Positions 7,724-25,460 of a stretch of 26,619 nt of DNA are shown piece after piece. Every line of letters starts with the position of its first letter. Positions within the stretch are counted from its first letter, which is position 1. The translations under genes and the position numbers were made by a program. A model generated the notes under the pieces. The model was not told the origin of the DNA. It worked only from the letters and a program-made list of their open reading frames with translations, and did no database searches. Source of the stretch: a virus; the IMG/VR virus record IMGVR_UViG_3300009428_004071, positions 1 to 26,619 of that record. The stretch is one strand, 5' to 3'.

Positions 7724-8746
7724 TCAGAAAATATTAAGTCCAAAGATATCTTTAACATCAAAAAGTACTTTTTCTGTTTTATCTCTAGATACTTGACTTC
7801 CTTTTATTAAAATATTAATTAGTTGAGCCTTATCACTTAAAAACTCAGATCTTCTCACTCTTATTGGTCGGAGCATGTCCTGTAAACATTCTTCCAATAT
7901 TTTTTTAGTTGTACCATCACCAAGCCCTCCCCGTTGATAGTGCTCTTTTAGTTGGCTGATATAGTTTTCATCTGGATGAAAAGCATCAAGATAAGTAAAA
8001 ACAATATTTCCTTCGACATTGCCAGGATCTTCAACCCTTAGGTGATTAGGGTCGGTATACATAGATTTTACCGCTGCGGAGATCTCTTTTTCGGTAGCCC
8101 CAAGATTAATGGCGTTGCCCATCGATTTAGACATCTTATTTTTCCCATCTGTACTTGGTAAACGTGATGCATTACTTAATAAGGGTCGACATTCATTCAA
8201 AACAATACGTCCTGCTAGTGAGTTAACTTTTCTCACTATCTCATTATTTTGTTCGAGCATTGGTAATTGATCATCCCCAACAGGAACTAATGTTGCGTTA
8301 AAACCCGTTATATCAGCAGCTTGAGATATTGGGTATGTTAAAAAACCAGCAGGAATCGAACGTTCAAACCCTTTGTGTTGAATCTCACTTTTAACAGTTG
8401 GATTTCGCTCTAAGCGACTGATTGATACAAGATTACTGTAATACATAGTTAATTCAGCAAGGGCGGGTAGTTTTGATTGAAGGCAAATCGTTGTTATAGA
8501 AGGATTGATGCCGACTGCTAGATAATCTGCAACGACATTTAGAATATTGGATGATACTTTTTTCGGATTATGAGCATTATCAGTAAGACCTTGCATATCA
8601 GCAACAAGAATAGTTTGTTCATGAATTGCCTGTAAAGCTACACGCTGCTTTAAAGAACCGACATAATGACCTAAATGCAATGGACCTGTAGCTCTATCGC
8701 CTGTTAAAATAATTTCTGGCTTATCTGAATCTTGCTTTGAGTTCAC
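7724..8746 (-). CDS. trpS: Tryptophan--tRNA ligase, GPLHLGH type (probable second TrpRS)
   Basis: Class Ic aminoacyl-tRNA synthetase that activates tryptophan with ATP and charges tRNA-Trp in the cytosol. The 340-residue length fits the family. The HIGH-type motif is GPLHLGHYVGSL (about residues 21-32), the VGDDQ motif of the Trp pocket follows, and KMSKSMGN is the signature loop. The start is GTG 8744-8746, with TAGGAG eight bases upstream. The GPLHLGH form differs from the GELTIGN form of the E. coli housekeeping enzyme and recalls the second, sometimes indolmycin-resistant, TrpRS found in several bacteria. Whether the host has another trpS cannot be seen here. An apparent tryptophan-responsive leader precedes it, so expression probably rises when charged tRNA-Trp falls. 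Confidence 0.93.
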   Translation of the reverse strand: MNSKQDSDKPEIILTGDRATGPLHLGHYVGSLKQRVALQAIHEQTILVADMQGLTDNAHNPKKVSSNILNVVADYLAVGINPSITTICLQSKLPALAELTMYYSNLVSISRLERNPTVKSEIQHKGFERSIPAGFLTYPISQAADITGFNATLVPVGDDQLPMLEQNNEIVRKVNSLAGRIVLNECRPLLSNASRLPSTDGKNKMSKSMGNAINLGATEKEISAAVKSMYTDPNHLRVEDPGNVEGNIVFTYLDAFHPDENYISQLKEHYQRGGLGDGTTKKILEECLQDMLRPIRVRRSEFLSDKAQLINILIKGSQVSRDKTEKVLFDVKDIFGLNIF

Positions 8747-8751
8747 GGGTA

Positions 8752-8786
8752 TATCTCCTAGTTAAAATAAATCACTACTGGAGATA
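8752..8786 (-). promoter_or_regulatory. Stem that can sequester the trpS ribosome-binding site
   Basis: On the - strand TATCTCC (8786-8780) is perfectly complementary to GGAGATA (8758-8752), which contains the trpS Shine-Dalgarno. A short TAG/CTA pairing adjoins it inside. The TATCTCC arm can alternatively pair with GGAAGGTAGCTAAG (8816-8803) through about twelve pairs with three bulges, which would free the ribosome-binding site. That segment also takes part in a third stem (8803-8827). Mutually exclusive stems of this kind suggest translational attenuation. I see no T-run terminator. The folding is done by eye. Confidence 0.55.
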
Positions 8787-8845
8787 CTAAAGAAATTACC
8801 GTCTTAGCTACCTTCCAGCAGCTTAAGAATGTAAGAATTCTGTGC

Positions 8846-8861
8846 CGCTCTAATTAGAGCG
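8846..8861 (-). promoter_or_regulatory. Perfect hairpin at the end of the trpS leader ORF
   Basis: CGCTCTAATTAGAGCG is a 16-base perfect palindrome that starts at the codon after the tandem Trp codons and includes the leader stop codon. A ribosome stalled on the Trp codons would cover this stem and prevent it from forming. Confidence 0.6.
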
Positions 8862-8903
8862 CCACCAGAAGAAGAATGATGTAAGAGTTGGAATATACTT
8901 CAT
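8850..8903 (-). CDS. trpS leader peptide with tandem Trp codons
   Basis: A 17-codon ORF reads MKYIPTLTSFFFWWRSN and stops with TAG. Two adjacent TGG codons (8867-8862) lie four codons before the end. Tandem codons for the amino acid being sensed, a short ORF about 100 bases before a tryptophan-related gene, a promoter directly upstream and downstream alternative stems are the features of ribosome-mediated attenuation leaders such as trpL. No clear Shine-Dalgarno is visible: the predicted transcript start is only about nine bases before the ATG, so initiation may be near-leaderless. The peptide itself is unlikely to have a function. It was too short for routine ORF calling. Confidence 0.72.
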   Translation of the reverse strand: MKYIPTLTSFFFWWRSN

Positions 8904-8918
8904 TTCGATAACTTAACA

Positions 8919-8947
8919 ATAATACTTTTGAAACTCAACCCTCTCAA
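8919..8947 (-). promoter_or_regulatory. Sigma70-type promoter for the trpS leader transcript
   Basis: On the - strand TTGAGA (8947-8942), a 17-base spacer and TATTAT (8924-8919) make a strong sigma70 match. Transcription would begin near 8912, about nine bases before the leader ATG at 8903. Confidence 0.65.
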
Positions 8948-9461
8948 GGGTAATTTTCAATATATAGCTTATGCAAAAAATAACTTTTATAGGAAGTATG
9001 GCGTTACGCCTCTTTGAAGGCTTCTCTTTCAAGTTGGTGATATTGATGCTGCGATAATGCTGGTGCATATACGCGATGCTAAAGGGGCAAAGACAGGCTG
9101 GTGCCATTACACCACGGACCTTGATAACACGGCTATTTTATGGATAAACTCATCGTCACCCTCTTTTGTCTTTCCCATTATATCTCTCTTGAATTGAACT
9201 GTATCTGCAATAGAGTACACTTTGTGTCATTACTAAAATTAGGTCAACTTTGCAAAACTTAACGGTTCAATAAGTTGCGTTCAAAATGTAACCAGTCACT
9301 AGGTATGAGAATTAAGCATTAAAGTGAAATCAAACGGGAATTAATTAAACTAGGTGGGAAATACAGTGAGGACTAGGCTTTGTGGCTGATTGCCATTTTG
9401 ACTGGTGCGTAATTGATTATTCGCAAGGTTTGAGATAAATCTTAGTTAAAAAGCAACAGCT
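8948..9461. other. Gene-free stretch, expected to hold the prophage left end
   Basis: No credible gene. The 64-codon frame on the - strand over 8913-9107 overlaps the trpS promoter and looks non-coding. The Mu-like element's left end and its transposase-binding sites should be here, between the trpS promoter and the repressor. I could not identify the terminal TG/CA boundary or a convincing set of repeated binding sites by eye. Confidence 0.4.
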
Positions 9462-9495: not shown

Positions 9496-10200
9496 TTAGT
9501 AAAGGTCCTTACCGATCCAGACTACTTTACCTATTATATGAAGCTTATCGATCTCGTCAGCTTTGACGATTTGATCTTCATACTCTTTATTGTCACTAAT
9601 CAGTCGAATATCCCCATCAAACCGCTTTTGCAAACGCTTGGCATAAAGCTCATCACCAAATCGTAGAACGAAGATACTGCCATCAGTTAACTTGGTGTCA
9701 GATGTATTCACTAGCAGTGTGTTGTTATTGTGGATTGTTGGTTCCATTGAATCACCGGAAGCAAAAACCACAGCAAGCTTTTCAGTTTCAAACCCTCTGA
9801 ACTTTAACCATTTACGTCTTAAAGCCAGATGGCGCTTAACTGGTTCACTATCCGTGATCCTGCCATGGCCAGTACTAACAGATAGATGATATCCAGGTAT
9901 TAATGAGTACTCTTCATCAAATTCATTGTTCACAACTTTGGTAACTTCATCACCCGTCTGCGGGTAGCCTTCACCAGATATAAGCCAGTCTAAAGAAACA
10001 TTTGCTTGTCTTGCCATAAGAAGCGCTTTGTCAATTTGAGGAAGTGATTGCCCCCTTAAATACTTTCTTAAACCTCCTTCAGATAAATCAATAGCGGATG
10101 CGAACGCGCGTACGCTTGTAGTTCCTATCGCCATTTCTAATCTTTCTGCAAACGTTTCCTTTCCTATTGCTGGAAAAGAAACATCATTTTCATTTTTCAT
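9496..10200 (-). CDS. Mu-like prophage repressor, HTH plus S24 peptidase-like domain
   Basis: A 234-residue LexA/CI-type repressor that keeps the early operon off. The N-terminal HTH lies at about residues 17-62 (VRAFASAIDLSEGGLRKYL). The C-terminal S24 fold has the catalytic Ser in GDSMEP (Ser151) and the Lys in YAKRL (Lys188). In this family RecA-stimulated self-cleavage normally falls at Ala-Gly or Cys-Gly. The matching region here reads VSTGHG (108-113), a Thr-Gly at that position, so SOS induction may be altered. The gene is divergent from the early operon, and the operator half-sites lie in the gap. The ribosome-binding site is weak, as is usual for repressors. Confidence 0.92.
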   Translation of the reverse strand: MKNENDVSFPAIGKETFAERLEMAIGTTSVRAFASAIDLSEGGLRKYLRGQSLPQIDKALLMARQANVSLDWLISGEGYPQTGDEVTKVVNNEFDEEYSLIPGYHLSVSTGHGRITDSEPVKRHLALRRKWLKFRGFETEKLAVVFASGDSMEPTIHNNNTLLVNTSDTKLTDGSIFVLRFGDELYAKRLQKRFDGDIRLISDNKEYEDQIVKADEIDKLHIIGKVVWIGKDLY

Positions 10201-10435: not shown

Positions 10436-10666
10436 GTGGAGATTGAAAATGCGAATCAGATCTACGCTGCATTAATGAGACGAGGACTCAGTTGCAGAGC
10501 CTGGGCATTAAGAGAGGGATATAACCCACGTACAGTACAAAAGTGCGTGCAAATGTTCGCGCCCAACACCGGACTAAAACCACGCTGGGGAAAAGTATCT
10601 AAAAAGATCTTGCTTGAGCTATCCAATGAAATTGAATTTGACTTGGTAGGGCATCGCTATGATTAA
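10436..10666 (+). CDS. BcepMu gp16-like small DNA-binding protein
   Basis: A 76-residue protein with a helix-turn-helix-like stretch (LSCRAWALREGYNPRTVQKC, about residues 18-37). It resembles the phage-associated BcepMu gp16 family, which takes the place of the Mu Ner regulator as first early gene. The start is GTG 10436, with AAGGAG eight bases upstream. It overlaps the transposase start by eight bases. A likely role is modulating early transcription, possibly by binding the nearby palindrome; this is inferred from position. Confidence 0.75.
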   Translation: MEIENANQIYAALMRRGLSCRAWALREGYNPRTVQKCVQMFAPNTGLKPRWGKVSKKILLELSNEIEFDLVGHRYD

Positions 10667-12881
10667 GCAATATTACACCCTTCAAGAACTGCTAAACATT
10701 CCTGGCATGTACACCACAGTGCAAGGTAATAGAAAGCTCGCTAATCGTGAATGTTGGACTAAAAAGAAATGCGACCAAGGCAAAGGCTTTGAATATCTCA
10801 TTGATAGTTTACCCACAGAAACACAAGCCTACCTAAAGGCTAAAGCTGTTGAGTCTAGTACCTCAAAAAGTGTTGTTTCAGCTAAATCAGCGTTAAAGCA
10901 GGACGAAGCTCAAGGTAAACAAATACGCCAACAACGTATCAATGCTAAAAGCCAAGGTTTAGCGCAATTCATGTGCTTAAGCGAATCAAAACAGGCCAAA
11001 GCTAAAGCCAGAGAAATGGTCATCAATGCTTTCAGCGAATTTGTATCGCCTTATGAGTCAGCTGGAAACAAATCGGCAGGAGTGATTGTTTTTGTAAATG
11101 GATTCAATACATCAAAAATACTCAGCAATAAAGACGTCCGAACCCACGTCACGCAACTCGCAAAAGCAACGCTTTATCGTTGGCACAAAGCCTATGAAGA
11201 GCAGGGCATCATCGGCTTAGTCGATCAATACAAAGGCCAAACAGCCTCAAAAATTGATCAACAACCGCGCTTGGGTGAATTTTTGCTCGCGTTAGTGACC
11301 AAAAAACCACATCTATTAAACCAAGCAAACAAAGTGCGTGATTTAGCCCTCGTTCGAGCTGCTGAATATGGCTGGCAACTCCCGTCAATCAGTTCATTTA
11401 AACGCTGGTTAACTCAGTATGCCGCCAAGCATGAGTTAGCGCATGCATTTACCACCAATCCGTCACTCTACACCGACAAATACCGACCGCTATTTGCCCG
11501 CATGTATCCACACATAGACGGACCAAACCAAGTATGGGAATTCGACTCAACACCCACCGACATTGAGCTAAACGTCGATGGCAAACTTAAACGTCATAGC
11601 ATCGTCGCAGTTATCGATGCATTCAGTCGCCGTGTGCAACTCATTGTGTCGCCAACATCTAATAGCGAAGCTATCTGTCTTCTGCTGCGTAAAACCCTCT
11701 TAGAGTGGGGATTACCAGAGCAGGGCGCCATCATGCGTACCGATAACGGTAGCGACTACGTCTCAAAACGCACCACCACAATATTCAACTTATTAGATTT
11801 AAAACTATCTAAAGCCAATGCATTTAGCGGATGGGAAAAACCCTTCATCGAACGCTTCTTTGGCACCATGAGTCGTGTGTTAATGGAAAAAATGCCAGGT
11901 TATATCGGTCACAGCGTAAGTGATCGCCAACAAATAGAGGCCATGTACAACTTTGCCAAACGTATTGGCGAAGGTAAAAAGCAAGCAGAAGCCGAAAGAC
12001 TCAGCCTGGCACTAACACCAGCGCAACTGCAGCAAGTGCTTAACGACTATTTAGAATTTGACTACAACCACGTAGCGCACGACAAAACCGACAAAACACC
12101 CTTCGAGTTATATGCCGGTTCTGGTTACAAAAAACGGGTTATCGATAACCCACATATCCTCGACACATTACTCAACTTTATCGGCACTGCAAAAGTAGTA
12201 CGTGGCAGCGTAAAAGCCGACGGCGTGCAATACACAGCACCCGAACTCATGGAAGCCGCATGGCAGCGCCAAGATGTTCGAGTATTTATCGACCCTTGTG
12301 ACATTGGCCGAGCCACCTTATACCCAATCGACAATTGGGAAACCTATATTGATGCCGTCAACATGGATCTCGTCAATCGTGGTATCGCCCCTGGTGAATT
12401 CCGCGAGCGTCGCAAACAAACCCAAAAAGAACTCAGCGCCTTTCGTAAATCGGCCAAACGATTACAACAAGAGCTTGGTATTGATGCGTTATATGCCGAC
12501 GAACTCGCCCAGAAAAAACTGCTACGCGCCAGCCTCAGCCACCTTGAACAAACGGCAGCCCATAACAATAGCGCTATCGCTGGGTTACACGCTGCAACCG
12601 AGGCAAAAAATACTCAATTCAGTGAAGCAGAACTCAATGCTATAGAACGTCAACGCGAAGCAATTGCCGAGCGACGTTCGCGTCAAGCACAGCAAGAGTC
12701 CCGCATAGTCAGAAGTGATCACGAAAAAGCCGTCCTGTTAACAACAGACAGCCTAAATCAAACATTAAATGAGAAGGAAGGTGAATGGCTTAAAAAATAC
12801 CGTTTAAACAATGTACTACATCGAAATCGACTAGACAAAATTTTAAAACAAGCCGAGCAGCCCCACCGGCAAGTGAAATAG
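10659..12881 (+). CDS. MuA-type DDE transposase
   Basis: This 740-residue transposase catalyses strand transfer of the phage ends for both integration and replicative transposition. The N terminus has a Mu-type DNA-binding domain (YYTLQELLNIPGMYTTVQGN). Further helical domains lead to the RNase H-like core with Asp296 (VWEFDSTPTD), Asp362 (MRTDNGSDY) and Glu398 (WEKPFIERFFG), a DD(35)E spacing by my count. A beta-barrel and a charged, helical C-terminal tail (about 590-740) follow, where MuB and ClpX contacts map in Mu. It looks intact. Its start overlaps the previous gene, and MuB follows after 75 bases. Confidence 0.95.
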   Translation: MIKQYYTLQELLNIPGMYTTVQGNRKLANRECWTKKKCDQGKGFEYLIDSLPTETQAYLKAKAVESSTSKSVVSAKSALKQDEAQGKQIRQQRINAKSQGLAQFMCLSESKQAKAKAREMVINAFSEFVSPYESAGNKSAGVIVFVNGFNTSKILSNKDVRTHVTQLAKATLYRWHKAYEEQGIIGLVDQYKGQTASKIDQQPRLGEFLLALVTKKPHLLNQANKVRDLALVRAAEYGWQLPSISSFKRWLTQYAAKHELAHAFTTNPSLYTDKYRPLFARMYPHIDGPNQVWEFDSTPTDIELNVDGKLKRHSIVAVIDAFSRRVQLIVSPTSNSEAICLLLRKTLLEWGLPEQGAIMRTDNGSDYVSKRTTTIFNLLDLKLSKANAFSGWEKPFIERFFGTMSRVLMEKMPGYIGHSVSDRQQIEAMYNFAKRIGEGKKQAEAERLSLALTPAQLQQVLNDYLEFDYNHVAHDKTDKTPFELYAGSGYKKRVIDNPHILDTLLNFIGTAKVVRGSVKADGVQYTAPELMEAAWQRQDVRVFIDPCDIGRATLYPIDNWETYIDAVNMDLVNRGIAPGEFRERRKQTQKELSAFRKSAKRLQQELGIDALYADELAQKKLLRASLSHLEQTAAHNNSAIAGLHAATEAKNTQFSEAELNAIERQREAIAERRSRQAQQESRIVRSDHEKAVLLTTDSLNQTLNEKEGEWLKKYRLNNVLHRNRLDKILKQAEQPHRQVK

Positions 12882-22241: not shown

Positions 22242-23838
22242 TGAATACTCAGTCTCACAGTATTAGCAAACCCCAATTTGATCCGGCAATGGAGGCAAGC
22301 TATCTCAGTGTGTTTGACCCCAAAGAGGTGTTGTTAGGTTATCAGAAACGCTGGATAGCTGATGAATCGCAGTTAAAAATTGCCGAAAAGTCTCGCCGAA
22401 CAGGATTAACCTGGGCAGAAGCGGCCGATGGCGCATTAACCGCAGGGGCAGCCCGTGGCCAAGGTGGCACCAATCACTTTTATGTCGGTTCCAATAAAGA
22501 AATGGCCCGCGAGTTTATCGACGCTGCCGCTATGTGGGCCAAGGTGTTTGATAAAGCCGCTGGCGATATTCAAGAAGAGATTTTTATCGACGATGGCCAA
22601 GACGGCAAAGAGATTTTAACTTTTGCCATTTACTTTGCCTCAGGCTTTAAAATTCAAGCGCTATCATCTAACCCCTCAAACCTGCGCGGTATGCAAGGTA
22701 ACGTTACCATCGACGAAGCCGCATTCCATGAGCGCCTTGCCGAAGTATTAAAAGCCGCACTGGCGTTAACCATGTGGGCGCAAAAGTACGCTTAATCAGT
22801 ACCCACAATGGCACCGACAACCTGTTTAACGAGCTGATTAACGATTCCCGTGCAGGCAAAAAAGACTACAGCGTTCACCGCATCACCTTAGACGATGCCT
22901 GTAACGAAGGGTTATATCAGCGTATTTGCCAAATTCGTGGCATCAAGTGGATGCAAGCGGGCGAAGATGACTGGAAAGCCAAACTGCTTAAAGCCACCGC
23001 CACCGAAGAAGATGCTCTCGAAGAATACTTTTGTGTGCCTAAGTCCGGTGGTGGCGCTTACTTAAACCGTGCGCTTATTGAAGCGCGTATGGCCAGTGTT
23101 GAAGAAAGCGGCCCCGTGGTTCGCTTAGCCAAAAAAGATGAATTCGGCCAGTGGCCTGAAAACCTGCGCGCGGCAGAAATACTGCAGTGGTGTGAAGATG
23201 AGTTAAAGCCTGTACTGGATAAATTAGATCCCTCACGGCCTCATGTATTTGGCGAAGACTTTGCCCGCAGTGGTGACTTAACCGTCATTGATGTGGGCGA
23301 ACTCGCCCAAGACTTACACCTTACCGTTAAGCTGCAAGTCGAGTTAAAAAACATTCCCTTTCGGCAGCAAGAACAAATCTTGTTTTACATTGTTGATCGC
23401 TTGCCGCGTTTACGTGGCGGCGGCATGGATGCGCGCGGTAATGGCCAAGCCTTAGCAGAATACGCCCAGGACAAATATGGCACCGAAGTGATTGAATGCG
23501 TGATGCTGTCTGAGTCGTTTTATCGTGAGCAAATGCCACGCTTTAAAAGCTATTTTGAAGATGCATTAATTACCATTCCAAGGGACGACGACACCGGCAC
23601 CGATTTACGTGCATTAAGCATTAACCGCCGTGGCACACCATGCCTAGGTGACGTGCGCACTGGGCAAGAGAAAGAGCGCCACGGTGATGCCGCCATCAGT
23701 TTATTTTTAATGGTGTACGCCTCAACCCTCGACGGCGCGCCCATCGAATTTACCCCCATTCCTAAAAGCGAACATCGCAATCCTAATGCCCGTCCGCATG
23801 ACGATGATGACGCCACAACACAACGAGGTTGCTGGTAA
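22241..23838 (+). pseudogene. Terminase large subunit (Mu gp28), broken by a one-base deletion
   Basis: The DNA-packaging motor and nuclease. The first frame (22241-22795, GTG start) carries KSRRTGLTW (Walker A-like) and VTIDEAAFH (Walker B), then stops at TAA 22793-22795. The second frame continues from about 22774 to 23838 with VRLISTHNGTDN, then the nuclease acids in FGEDFARSGDLTV, MDARGNG and HGDAAIS. Homologues read LTMWGxKV: ATG TGG GGC GCA would restore this. The sequence has GGG where GGGG is expected at about 22776-22778, so one G is missing. The product would lack the nuclease domain unless the ribosome shifts frame. The next gene overlaps its stop (TAATG). Confidence 0.88.
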
Positions 23839-25460
23839 TGCAACAACGAACCACCAAAATAGTTGATCACTTAGGTCGCCCTTTTAAGCAGCGTGATGCT
23901 AAAGCCATGCAAACTGACGATGTACGCTTAGTTGGTTTGCAACGCACCTTTAGCCAACACCCATCAAGCGGTTTAACACCAGCAAGGGCTGCACAAATTA
24001 TGCAAGCAGCCGAACAAGGTGACTTAATTGCCCAATGCGAACTGGCCGAAGATATCGAAGAAAAAGACGGCCATTTATATGCCGAGTTAGATAAGCGTAA
24101 ACGTGCCTTAATTGGTGTGGACTATTTTTTGGTGCCACCACGAAACCCCAGCGCACAAGAAAAAGCCGACACCGAATACCTGCAAGAAATGCTCGAAGAG
24201 GGCAACTGGATAAAGGCATTAATCAAATCTATGAGTGATGCCATTTTAAAAGGCTTTAGCTTGCATGAGTTGAGTTGGACTCGCGAACTTGGTGAGTGGT
24301 TTGTTGAGGTGCCAGAATATCGTGATCCGTCATGGTTTATGACCCACCCAGAAAGGCGTAATGAACTGCGCTTACGTGATGCATCCCATAACGGCGCTGA
24401 GCTATGGCCCTTTGGTTGGATTAAGCATACTCACTTAGCCAAATCGGGTTATCTCAGTCGCGGTGGTTTAGTGCGCCAATTAGTATGGCCATTCATCTTT
24501 AAAAATTACAGTGTGCGTGATCTCGCCGAGTTTTTAGAAATTTATGGTTTGCCACTGCGCATAGGCCAATACCCAGCCGGTGCCAGTGATGACGAAAAGC
24601 GTGCATTACTGCAAGCGGTAATGAGCATTGGCCACAATGCGGGTGGCATTATGCCCAAAGGCATGGTGATGGACTTTCACAGTGCCGCCACCGGCCAGGC
24701 CGACCCGTTTGAGCTGATGTTCACCTGGGCCGAAAAAACCATGAGTAAGGTGATTTTAGGTGGCACCCTCACCAGCCAAGCTGATGGTAAAAGCTCAACC
24801 AATGCCTTGGGTAATGTACATAACGAAGTACGCCAGGAGCTGCGTGACTCAGACTTGGCGCAAATAGCCGAAACCTTAACCCGTGATTTAATCGCGCCGT
24901 TATATGCGCTTAACTGCAAGAGCTATCAAAGCCCACGTCGTCACCCGCGCTTAGTATTTGATATAACCGATACCGAAGACTTAGCCGGATTAGCAGAGCC
25001 ACTAAAAGTATTAGTCAGCATGGGGTTGCAGGTGCCACAAAGTTGGCTGCATGAAAAAACCCGCATCCCTAAGCCTGCCAATAATGAGGCGGTATTGTTG
25101 CCAGAAGCAACGGCATTACCGCGTTCGCCAGAGCCTACTAATAACAAACCCAGTGCCTTAGCAGCCTTAGCGGCAGATAAAATTAGCCGCCTTAAAAAGC
25201 TGAGTGAGCAACAGCAGTTTGATGAATCTGAAAACCAACTTGATAGCATGGCCGAACAGTTGGCAAATGATATGCGCCCAGTACTGGCTAACTACACTGA
25301 GCAAATCGCCGCAGTGGTTGCCAATGCCGAATCGCTTGAAGCACTGCAAGCAGCATTAGCTGAGTTTGATTTATCCATCGATGAAGCCAGCGACATTATG
25401 CAGCAAGCGTTTGCCGTGGCTGATTTAGCGGGGCAGTTTGATGTAAGCGAGGGCCGCTAA
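23838..25460 (+). CDS. DUF935 portal protein (Mu gp29)
   Basis: 540 residues from ATG 23838, which overlaps the terminase stop; GAGG lies upstream. DUF935 features include TKIVDHLGRPF at the N terminus, DGHLYAELDKRKRALIG, LSWTRELGEWFVEVPEYRDP and the central FLEIYGLPLRIGQYP. The C-terminal part (about 430-540) is helical and more variable. The portal forms the ring through which DNA enters and leaves the head, and here it would work with the now broken terminase. Its stop overlaps the ATG of the MuF gene (TAATG). Confidence 0.93.
   Translation: MQQRTTKIVDHLGRPFKQRDAKAMQTDDVRLVGLQRTFSQHPSSGLTPARAAQIMQAAEQGDLIAQCELAEDIEEKDGHLYAELDKRKRALIGVDYFLVPPRNPSAQEKADTEYLQEMLEEGNWIKALIKSMSDAILKGFSLHELSWTRELGEWFVEVPEYRDPSWFMTHPERRNELRLRDASHNGAELWPFGWIKHTHLAKSGYLSRGGLVRQLVWPFIFKNYSVRDLAEFLEIYGLPLRIGQYPAGASDDEKRALLQAVMSIGHNAGGIMPKGMVMDFHSAATGQADPFELMFTWAEKTMSKVILGGTLTSQADGKSSTNALGNVHNEVRQELRDSDLAQIAETLTRDLIAPLYALNCKSYQSPRRHPRLVFDITDTEDLAGLAEPLKVLVSMGLQVPQSWLHEKTRIPKPANNEAVLLPEATALPRSPEPTNNKPSALAALAADKISRLKKLSEQQQFDESENQLDSMAEQLANDMRPVLANYTEQIAAVVANAESLEALQAALAEFDLSIDEASDIMQQAFAVADLAGQFDVSEGR

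Follow-up and report, generated by a model that had tools for sequence, protein, structure and literature searches.

The window, a stretch of 26,619 nucleotides taken from an IMG/VR record, contains a Mu-like prophage joined to host DNA. A gene for an auxiliary tryptophanyl-tRNA synthetase, trpS2, and the leader that precedes it are found on the minus strand (Table 1). Over the 1.56 kb compared, Shewanella ulleungensis is 98% identical to the window from position ~9287 downward. Homology to this host relative breaks off ~340 nt ahead of the trpS2 promoter (window 8950–9290), and this point is thus the likely host–prophage boundary; the promoter and leader are intact beside it. No relative was found among the viral contigs searched.

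Table 1. Positions of the trpS2 locus, its RNA segments and the prophage genes in the window.
Feature	Position	Strand	Details
-35 box	8933–8938	-	TTGAGT; aligned with Shewanella, Alteromonas and Vibrio leaders
-10 box	8910–8915	-	TAAGTT; 17-nt spacer; ends 6 nt before leader ATG
Leader ORF	8850–8903	-	MKYIPTLTSFFFWWRSN, then stop; 17 codons; ATG 8903, TGG TGG 8867–8862, TAG 8852–8850
H1 hairpin (1:2)	8838–8870	-	arms TTCTGGTGGCGCTCT/AGAGCGGCACAGAA
Segment 1	8856–8870	-	5′ arm of H1, holds the Trp codons; fold, 1:2 partner swap
Segment 2	8837–8851	-	3′ arm of H1 (AGAGCGGCACAGAAT), begins inside the stop codon
Segment 3	8809–8830	-	ATTC (8830–8827) and GCTGCTGGAAGGTA (8822–8809); partners 2, 3′ or 4
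Segment 3′	8796–8812	-	
H2 hairpin (3:3′)	8796–8834	-	MFE structure
Segment 4	8774–8786	-	TATCTCCAGTAGT; anti-sequestor with 3, sequestor with 5
Segment 5	8752–8758	-	GGAGATA; includes the trpS2 Shine–Dalgarno
Sequestor stem (4:5)	8780–8786 with 8752–8758	-	TATCTCC/GGAGATA
trpS2	7724–8746	-	GTG start, 340 aa; TIGR00233 217.8 bits
Prophage repressor	9496–10200		
Prophage transposase	10659–12881		
Prophage portal	23829–25460		

The solved structures nearest to the trpS2 product are those of D. radiodurans TrpRS II (1yi8, 2a4m; E 1e-102). A TIGR00233 search of eight genomes revealed a separate housekeeping trpS (353–375 bits) beside trpS2 (220–240 bits) in seven of them, while MAG G006 carried trpS2 alone. 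The trpS2 product has GDRATG where housekeeping enzymes carry G(A/V)QPSG, a position tied to indolmycin resistance in Streptomyces; with regard to an indolmycin-resistant enzyme, the motif is suggestive only. Insertions are tolerated in Salmonella trpS, a tolerance the authors ascribe to trpS2 (PMC3487940), and trpS2 is 2-fold up in biofilm along with trp genes (PMC2805695). Both published observations are consistent with the Trp-sensing reading developed below and are not proof of it. On two E. coli plasmids trpS2 with its leader is located near transposase genes, of IS26 in one (L081) and of IS3000, together with a fosA8-like gene, in the other (L089). Two MAGs named Desulfobacterium (L047, L066) carry a trpS2 ~70% identical to that of the window, in L047 also with the leader, indicating either horizontal transfer or mis-binning.

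The leader contains a 17-codon ORF with tandem TGG codons, as described in a preliminary description made from the window sequence alone. That description proposed a comparison of orthologous upstream regions. When this was carried out on a collection of 84,980 species, 65 close trpS2 loci were obtained, of which 63 carry an ORF of 16–23 aa with WW near its end; by sequence, the short ORF rich in regulatory codons that broadly characterizes ribosome-mediated amino-acid attenuators is therefore present. Both arms of the downstream stem were likewise kept, with compensatory change, so that the outcome named in the preliminary description as refuting its reading did not occur. Across 398 proteobacterial genomes the WW ORF preceded 18 of 25 trpS2 genes (E ≤ 1e-80), with one more showing a single W (L130) and two left unlocated by the script. 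Within the same eight genomes as above it was observed before trpS2 in 8/8 cases, versus 0/7 for housekeeping trpS. These counts were taken only from samples not chosen by TGGTGG, whereas the leaders in the structural tests below were chosen by that motif. The WW leader occurs in plasmid records of Klebsiella, E. coli and Salmonella, and in Aeromonas, Variovorax, Burkholderia and Roseibium. WW is constant while the residues that follow differ by clade (RS, LPA, CCF, HG, RA, LVS), a variation presumably imposed by the need of segment 1 to match segment 2. No leader was found before trpS2 in L060, L082, L087, L124, L126, L128 and L136. The L130 leader, read by eye, has one Trp codon only (MDNHAQTQTRFYWPSP) and retains the GCGGC, GCCGCC and ACGGCGGC segments. 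In L092 the Salmonella sRNA family isrQ (Rfam RF01399; 171–332, minus strand) is found immediately before the trpS2 leader ORF but on the other strand, and is thus divergent from the promoter region of the leader.

The promoter originally assigned to this leader, TTGAGA-17-TATTAT, does exist, with 10 of 12 consensus bases, and its TATTAT outscores TAAGTT when the window is considered alone. However, it is unconserved, reading CATTAT in the nearest relative; TAAGTT is the conserved box, and the true promoter appears to lie ~9 nt downstream of the one first assigned. Given the short distance from this -10 box to the ATG, transcription is expected to start at or beside the ATG itself. In 63 of 87 leaders the best -10 box, scored with a hand-written matrix, ends 6–7 nt ahead of the leader AUG; gaps of 3–11 nt are seen in 79% of leaders versus 30% of shuffled upstream DNA. 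Only 7 of the 87 have a Shine–Dalgarno sequence of at least 4 nt ahead of this AUG. The leader ORF thus appears to be leaderless, i.e. the transcript would begin at the AUG. There are precedents for such an arrangement, since S. meliloti trpL RNA begins at its ATG (PMC7298713) and leaderless leader peptides occur in S. lividans (PMC8079986).

The five RNA segments give rise to the mutually exclusive pairings 1:2, 2:3, 3:3′ (H2), 3:4 and 4:5. The leader fold (MFE −52.0 vs −38.3 kcal/mol, z −3.5) beats 200 of 200 dinucleotide shuffles. The hairpin noted earlier over the end of the ORF corresponds to H1, and the stem reported to hide the trpS2 Shine–Dalgarno is 4:5. The alternative partner ascribed to its TATCTCC arm was also recovered, as CTGCTGGAAGGTA (8821–8809) within H2. 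Pairing 3:4 is exemplified by CTGCTGGaAGGTA/TATCTCCAGTAG in the window, GCCGCCAGCCATG/CATGGCTGGCGGC in Burkholderia and GCCGTCGGT/ACCGATGGT in Shewanella marina. The default fold accordingly pairs the Shine–Dalgarno and a competing anti-sequestor exists, the layout of a translational attenuator that acts by Shine–Dalgarno sequestration.

The pairings were tested without alignment on 21 leaders less than 72% alike, by comparing each segment's own partner with the partners from other leaders in 20,000 permutations. Own partners were better on average for 1:2 (z −6.1), 2:3 (z −5.3), 3:4 (z −9.5) and 4:5 (z −5.7), each with 0/20000 permutations as good, and eight unexpected combinations gave z +0.7 to −2.5. 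H2 reached only z −1.6, and its pairing in divergent leaders is weakly supported. Segment 4 and its surroundings were also shuffled 200 times. Of 74 leaders, 72 had a 3:4 duplex and 56 a 4:5 duplex better than these shuffles (p ≤ 0.05); some leaders from beta-, alpha- and enterobacteria showed only a weak 4:5. In an alignment of 15 leaders (A1), 3:4 was 92.8% paired and both bases had changed in 6 of its 13 pairs (0/500 shuffles), while H2 was 81% paired, with covariation matched in 4/500 shuffles; 1:2 (97% paired) and 4:5 (93%) displayed scant variation for testing either. Pairing 2:3 was 94% paired in A1 with no excess over shuffles. As MAFFT misplaces the inner helix of 2:3 in Photobacterium, the alignment-free swap test was given more weight. 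A covariance model built from A1, which is of Vibrionales/Alteromonadales type, correctly placed 14 leaders outside its training set, including ones from Klebsiella, Salmonella, E. coli plasmids and alphaproteobacteria. A low-power search of 274 gammaproteobacterial genomes with the RNA model under strict filters recovered no leader but that of the Shewanella centre genome, and no other gene class. A motif-based DNA search of 398 genomes was disregarded, since its motif is missing from Vibrio leaders. In combination, sequence comparison supports the ORF with its WW, the pairings 1:2, 2:3, 3:4 and 4:5 and, less firmly, H2, the promoter position and the ribosome geometry considered next, and with them the original proposal of a leader that sequesters the Shine–Dalgarno and would sense Trp.

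In 85/85 leaders the core of segment 2 begins 16–21 nt downstream of the second TGG, counted from its first base, and at most 9 nt past the stop. The edge of the ribosome footprint is found ~12 nt from the A-site codon. Consequently, a ribosome with the second TGG in its A site would leave segment 2 free, and one with the stop codon there would shadow it. The coevolving pairings together with this geometry point to an attenuator in the broad sense, with exclusive structures among which, we infer, the position of the ribosome chooses. However, equilibrium partition functions computed with ribosome masks revealed no switch: wherever the ribosome was placed, the Shine–Dalgarno stayed closed (mean P open 0.13–0.19). 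Moreover, H2 was more stable than 2:3 in 29 of 31 leaders. Hence a switch would exist only if folding is kinetic. Folding-path barriers, a calculation with nested structures only and not a demonstration, had medians of 4.8 kcal/mol from 2:3 to 3:4, 8.8 from 2:3 to H2 and 21.3 from H2 to 3:4, and a barrier of 19.3 kcal/mol was obtained from 3:4 to H2 plus 4:5. The step from 2:3 to 3:4 was lower than that from H2 to 3:4 in 31/31 leaders, and lower than that from 2:3 to H2 in 29/31. This pattern makes a kinetic switch plausible, in which 2:3, expected to form only upon stalling, would serve as a placeholder deciding between two long-lived folds. We propose pairing 2:3 as the link from H1 to the downstream stems, a connection the preliminary description had not made.

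The proposed mechanism would proceed as follows. The RNA would start at the leader AUG, and a ribosome would translate the leaderless WW ORF while the RNA emerges. With ample Trp-tRNA the ribosome would reach the stop codon and shadow segment 2, or leave and let H1 re-form; segment 3 would then enter H2, and segment 4, left partnerless, would pair with segment 5 and shut the Shine–Dalgarno. Conversely, when Trp-tRNA is scarce the ribosome would stall on TGG TGG, so that H1 does not form and segment 2 is exposed. Pairing 2:3 would be made before the 3′ arm of H2 exists, keeping segment 3 from H2. The 3′ part of segment 3, single-stranded in 2:3, would offer a foothold from which segment 4 takes segment 3 over to give 3:4; segment 5 would never be covered and trpS2 would be translated. 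This relay step is a model, because the two pairings 2:3 and 3:4 overlap in segment 3. We infer from these data in what order the events occur, which sign applies (starvation = ON) and Trp sensing itself; the sign rests on the barrier calculation and on the biology expected of a synthetase gene.

The same parts could be read with the sign reversed, 2:3 blocking 3:4 upon stalling so that 4:5 forms and trpS2 is shut under Trp starvation. The segment 3 bases common to 2:3 and 3:4 would allow this, and for several Photobacterium leaders the calculation gives a more open Shine–Dalgarno when the ribosome sits on the stop codon. Such a scheme, however, leaves no role for H2, is at odds with 3:4 being reached over ~5 kcal/mol from 2:3 compared with ~21 from H2, and would turn off a TrpRS upon charging failure; we regard it as unlikely. 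Only slightly better placed, and still improbable in our judgement, is classical transcription attenuation of the kind known from trp operons and Streptomyces trpRS1, with H2 as terminator and 2:3 as antiterminator. The layout of 2:3 and H2 fits it, 41 of 86 leaders, but few of the divergent ones, have at least 5 T in the 8 nt after H2, and Roseibium L093 and the alphaproteobacterial L135 show a GC-rich hairpin followed by a T-run. Against this, a T-run after H2 is lacking in Burkholderia, Variovorax, Photobacterium, L129–L134 and the window, where, in agreement with the first inspection, no canonical terminator of the trp-operon type was found past H2 (4 T in 8 nt). Moreover, the compensatory upkeep of 3:4 and 4:5 would go unexplained. 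Since the Shine–Dalgarno sequestor is present in most leaders and the U-tract after H2 is not conserved to the same extent, translational output, as suggested at the outset, is favoured; termination at H2 may have been added in some clades (L093, L135), though not in the window.

That the Shine–Dalgarno is hidden by the default fold in all states would also suit a constitutive RNA thermometer or translation moderator in which the WW codons are incidental. We consider this very unlikely, as WW is retained while its neighbours vary by clade and is missing before housekeeping trpS. A T-box or other known Rfam element is given next to no credence: two Firmicutes relatives of trpS2 do carry a T-box, but neither RF00230 nor any other Rfam 15 family matched the window at gathering threshold or E ≤ 5, and no Rfam match was seen over the leader in 12 other loci. 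In those two Firmicutes loci (L069:2618–2968 and L070:2574–2994) the T-box is followed by a short GTG-started WWW ORF just before the trpS2 relative, an arrangement reminiscent of the anti-TRAP leader in B. subtilis. The reading we prefer, with a probability of roughly three in four, is control of trpS2 translation by a ribosome-mediated attenuator sensing charged tRNA-Trp.

Attenuation by the ribosome is textbook knowledge, and most of what is known of it in proteobacteria concerns transcription termination ahead of biosynthetic operons; the E. coli trp operon, with tandem Trp codons and a terminator as output, is an example. The B. subtilis rtpLP/anti-TRAP system likewise has a Trp-codon leader ORF, and a ribosome stalled on it governs how the following gene is translated, but the system is T-box-coupled, belongs to Firmicutes and controls anti-TRAP. 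A 2010 study by Vecchione and Sello reportedly concerns Trp-leader attenuation of a Streptomyces auxiliary trpS. The Trp leaders before auxiliary trpS in Streptomyces (trpRS1/trpS2) are described as transcription attenuators (PMC1262725). They share with the present leader a Trp leader peptide before an auxiliary TrpRS and ribosome-mediated attenuation, proposed or shown, yet they are actinobacterial and, as described, act on transcription, whereas in the proteobacterial leader the Shine–Dalgarno is sequestered and U-tracts are unconserved. The trpL attenuators of E. coli and S. meliloti trpLE(G) (PMC7298713) similarly combine a short tandem-Trp ORF with exclusive 1:2 and 2:3 hairpins, but place a terminator before biosynthetic genes and are not known to have a 3:4/4:5 Shine–Dalgarno switch. 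The gammaproteobacterial pheST attenuator (PMC1262725) also provides leader-peptide control of a proteobacterial aminoacyl-tRNA synthetase, albeit for Phe and via a transcriptional terminator. Ribosome profiling in C. crescentus identified a translated small leader CDS on trpS mRNA (PMC4117421), which is similar to the window leader as a small CDS upstream on a trpS mRNA, a likeness by description only. No description of the proteobacterial trpS2 leader or its Shine–Dalgarno switch was found in the open-access literature searched.

It is conceivable, though we rate it somewhat below an even chance, that these leaders constitute an undescribed regulatory RNA family, spread over alpha-, beta- and gammaproteobacteria and also found on plasmid records, whose leaderless WW ORF and five-segment kinetic relay turn on translation of an inhibitor-tolerant spare TrpRS when the housekeeping enzyme fails. 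On the preferred reading, one RNA design would control translation initiation of a spare aminoacyl-tRNA synthetase in three proteobacterial classes, with 2:3 as a helper pairing which, by calculation, matters only as a kinetic intermediate. The leader would thereby provide a small system, open to experiment, in which the position of the ribosome determines cotranscriptional strand exchange. The model predicts that inhibiting the housekeeping TrpRS induces the backup enzyme and, as trpS2 and its leader are found on plasmid-typed records of Klebsiella, E. coli and Salmonella, this would bear on tolerance of TrpRS-directed antibacterials.
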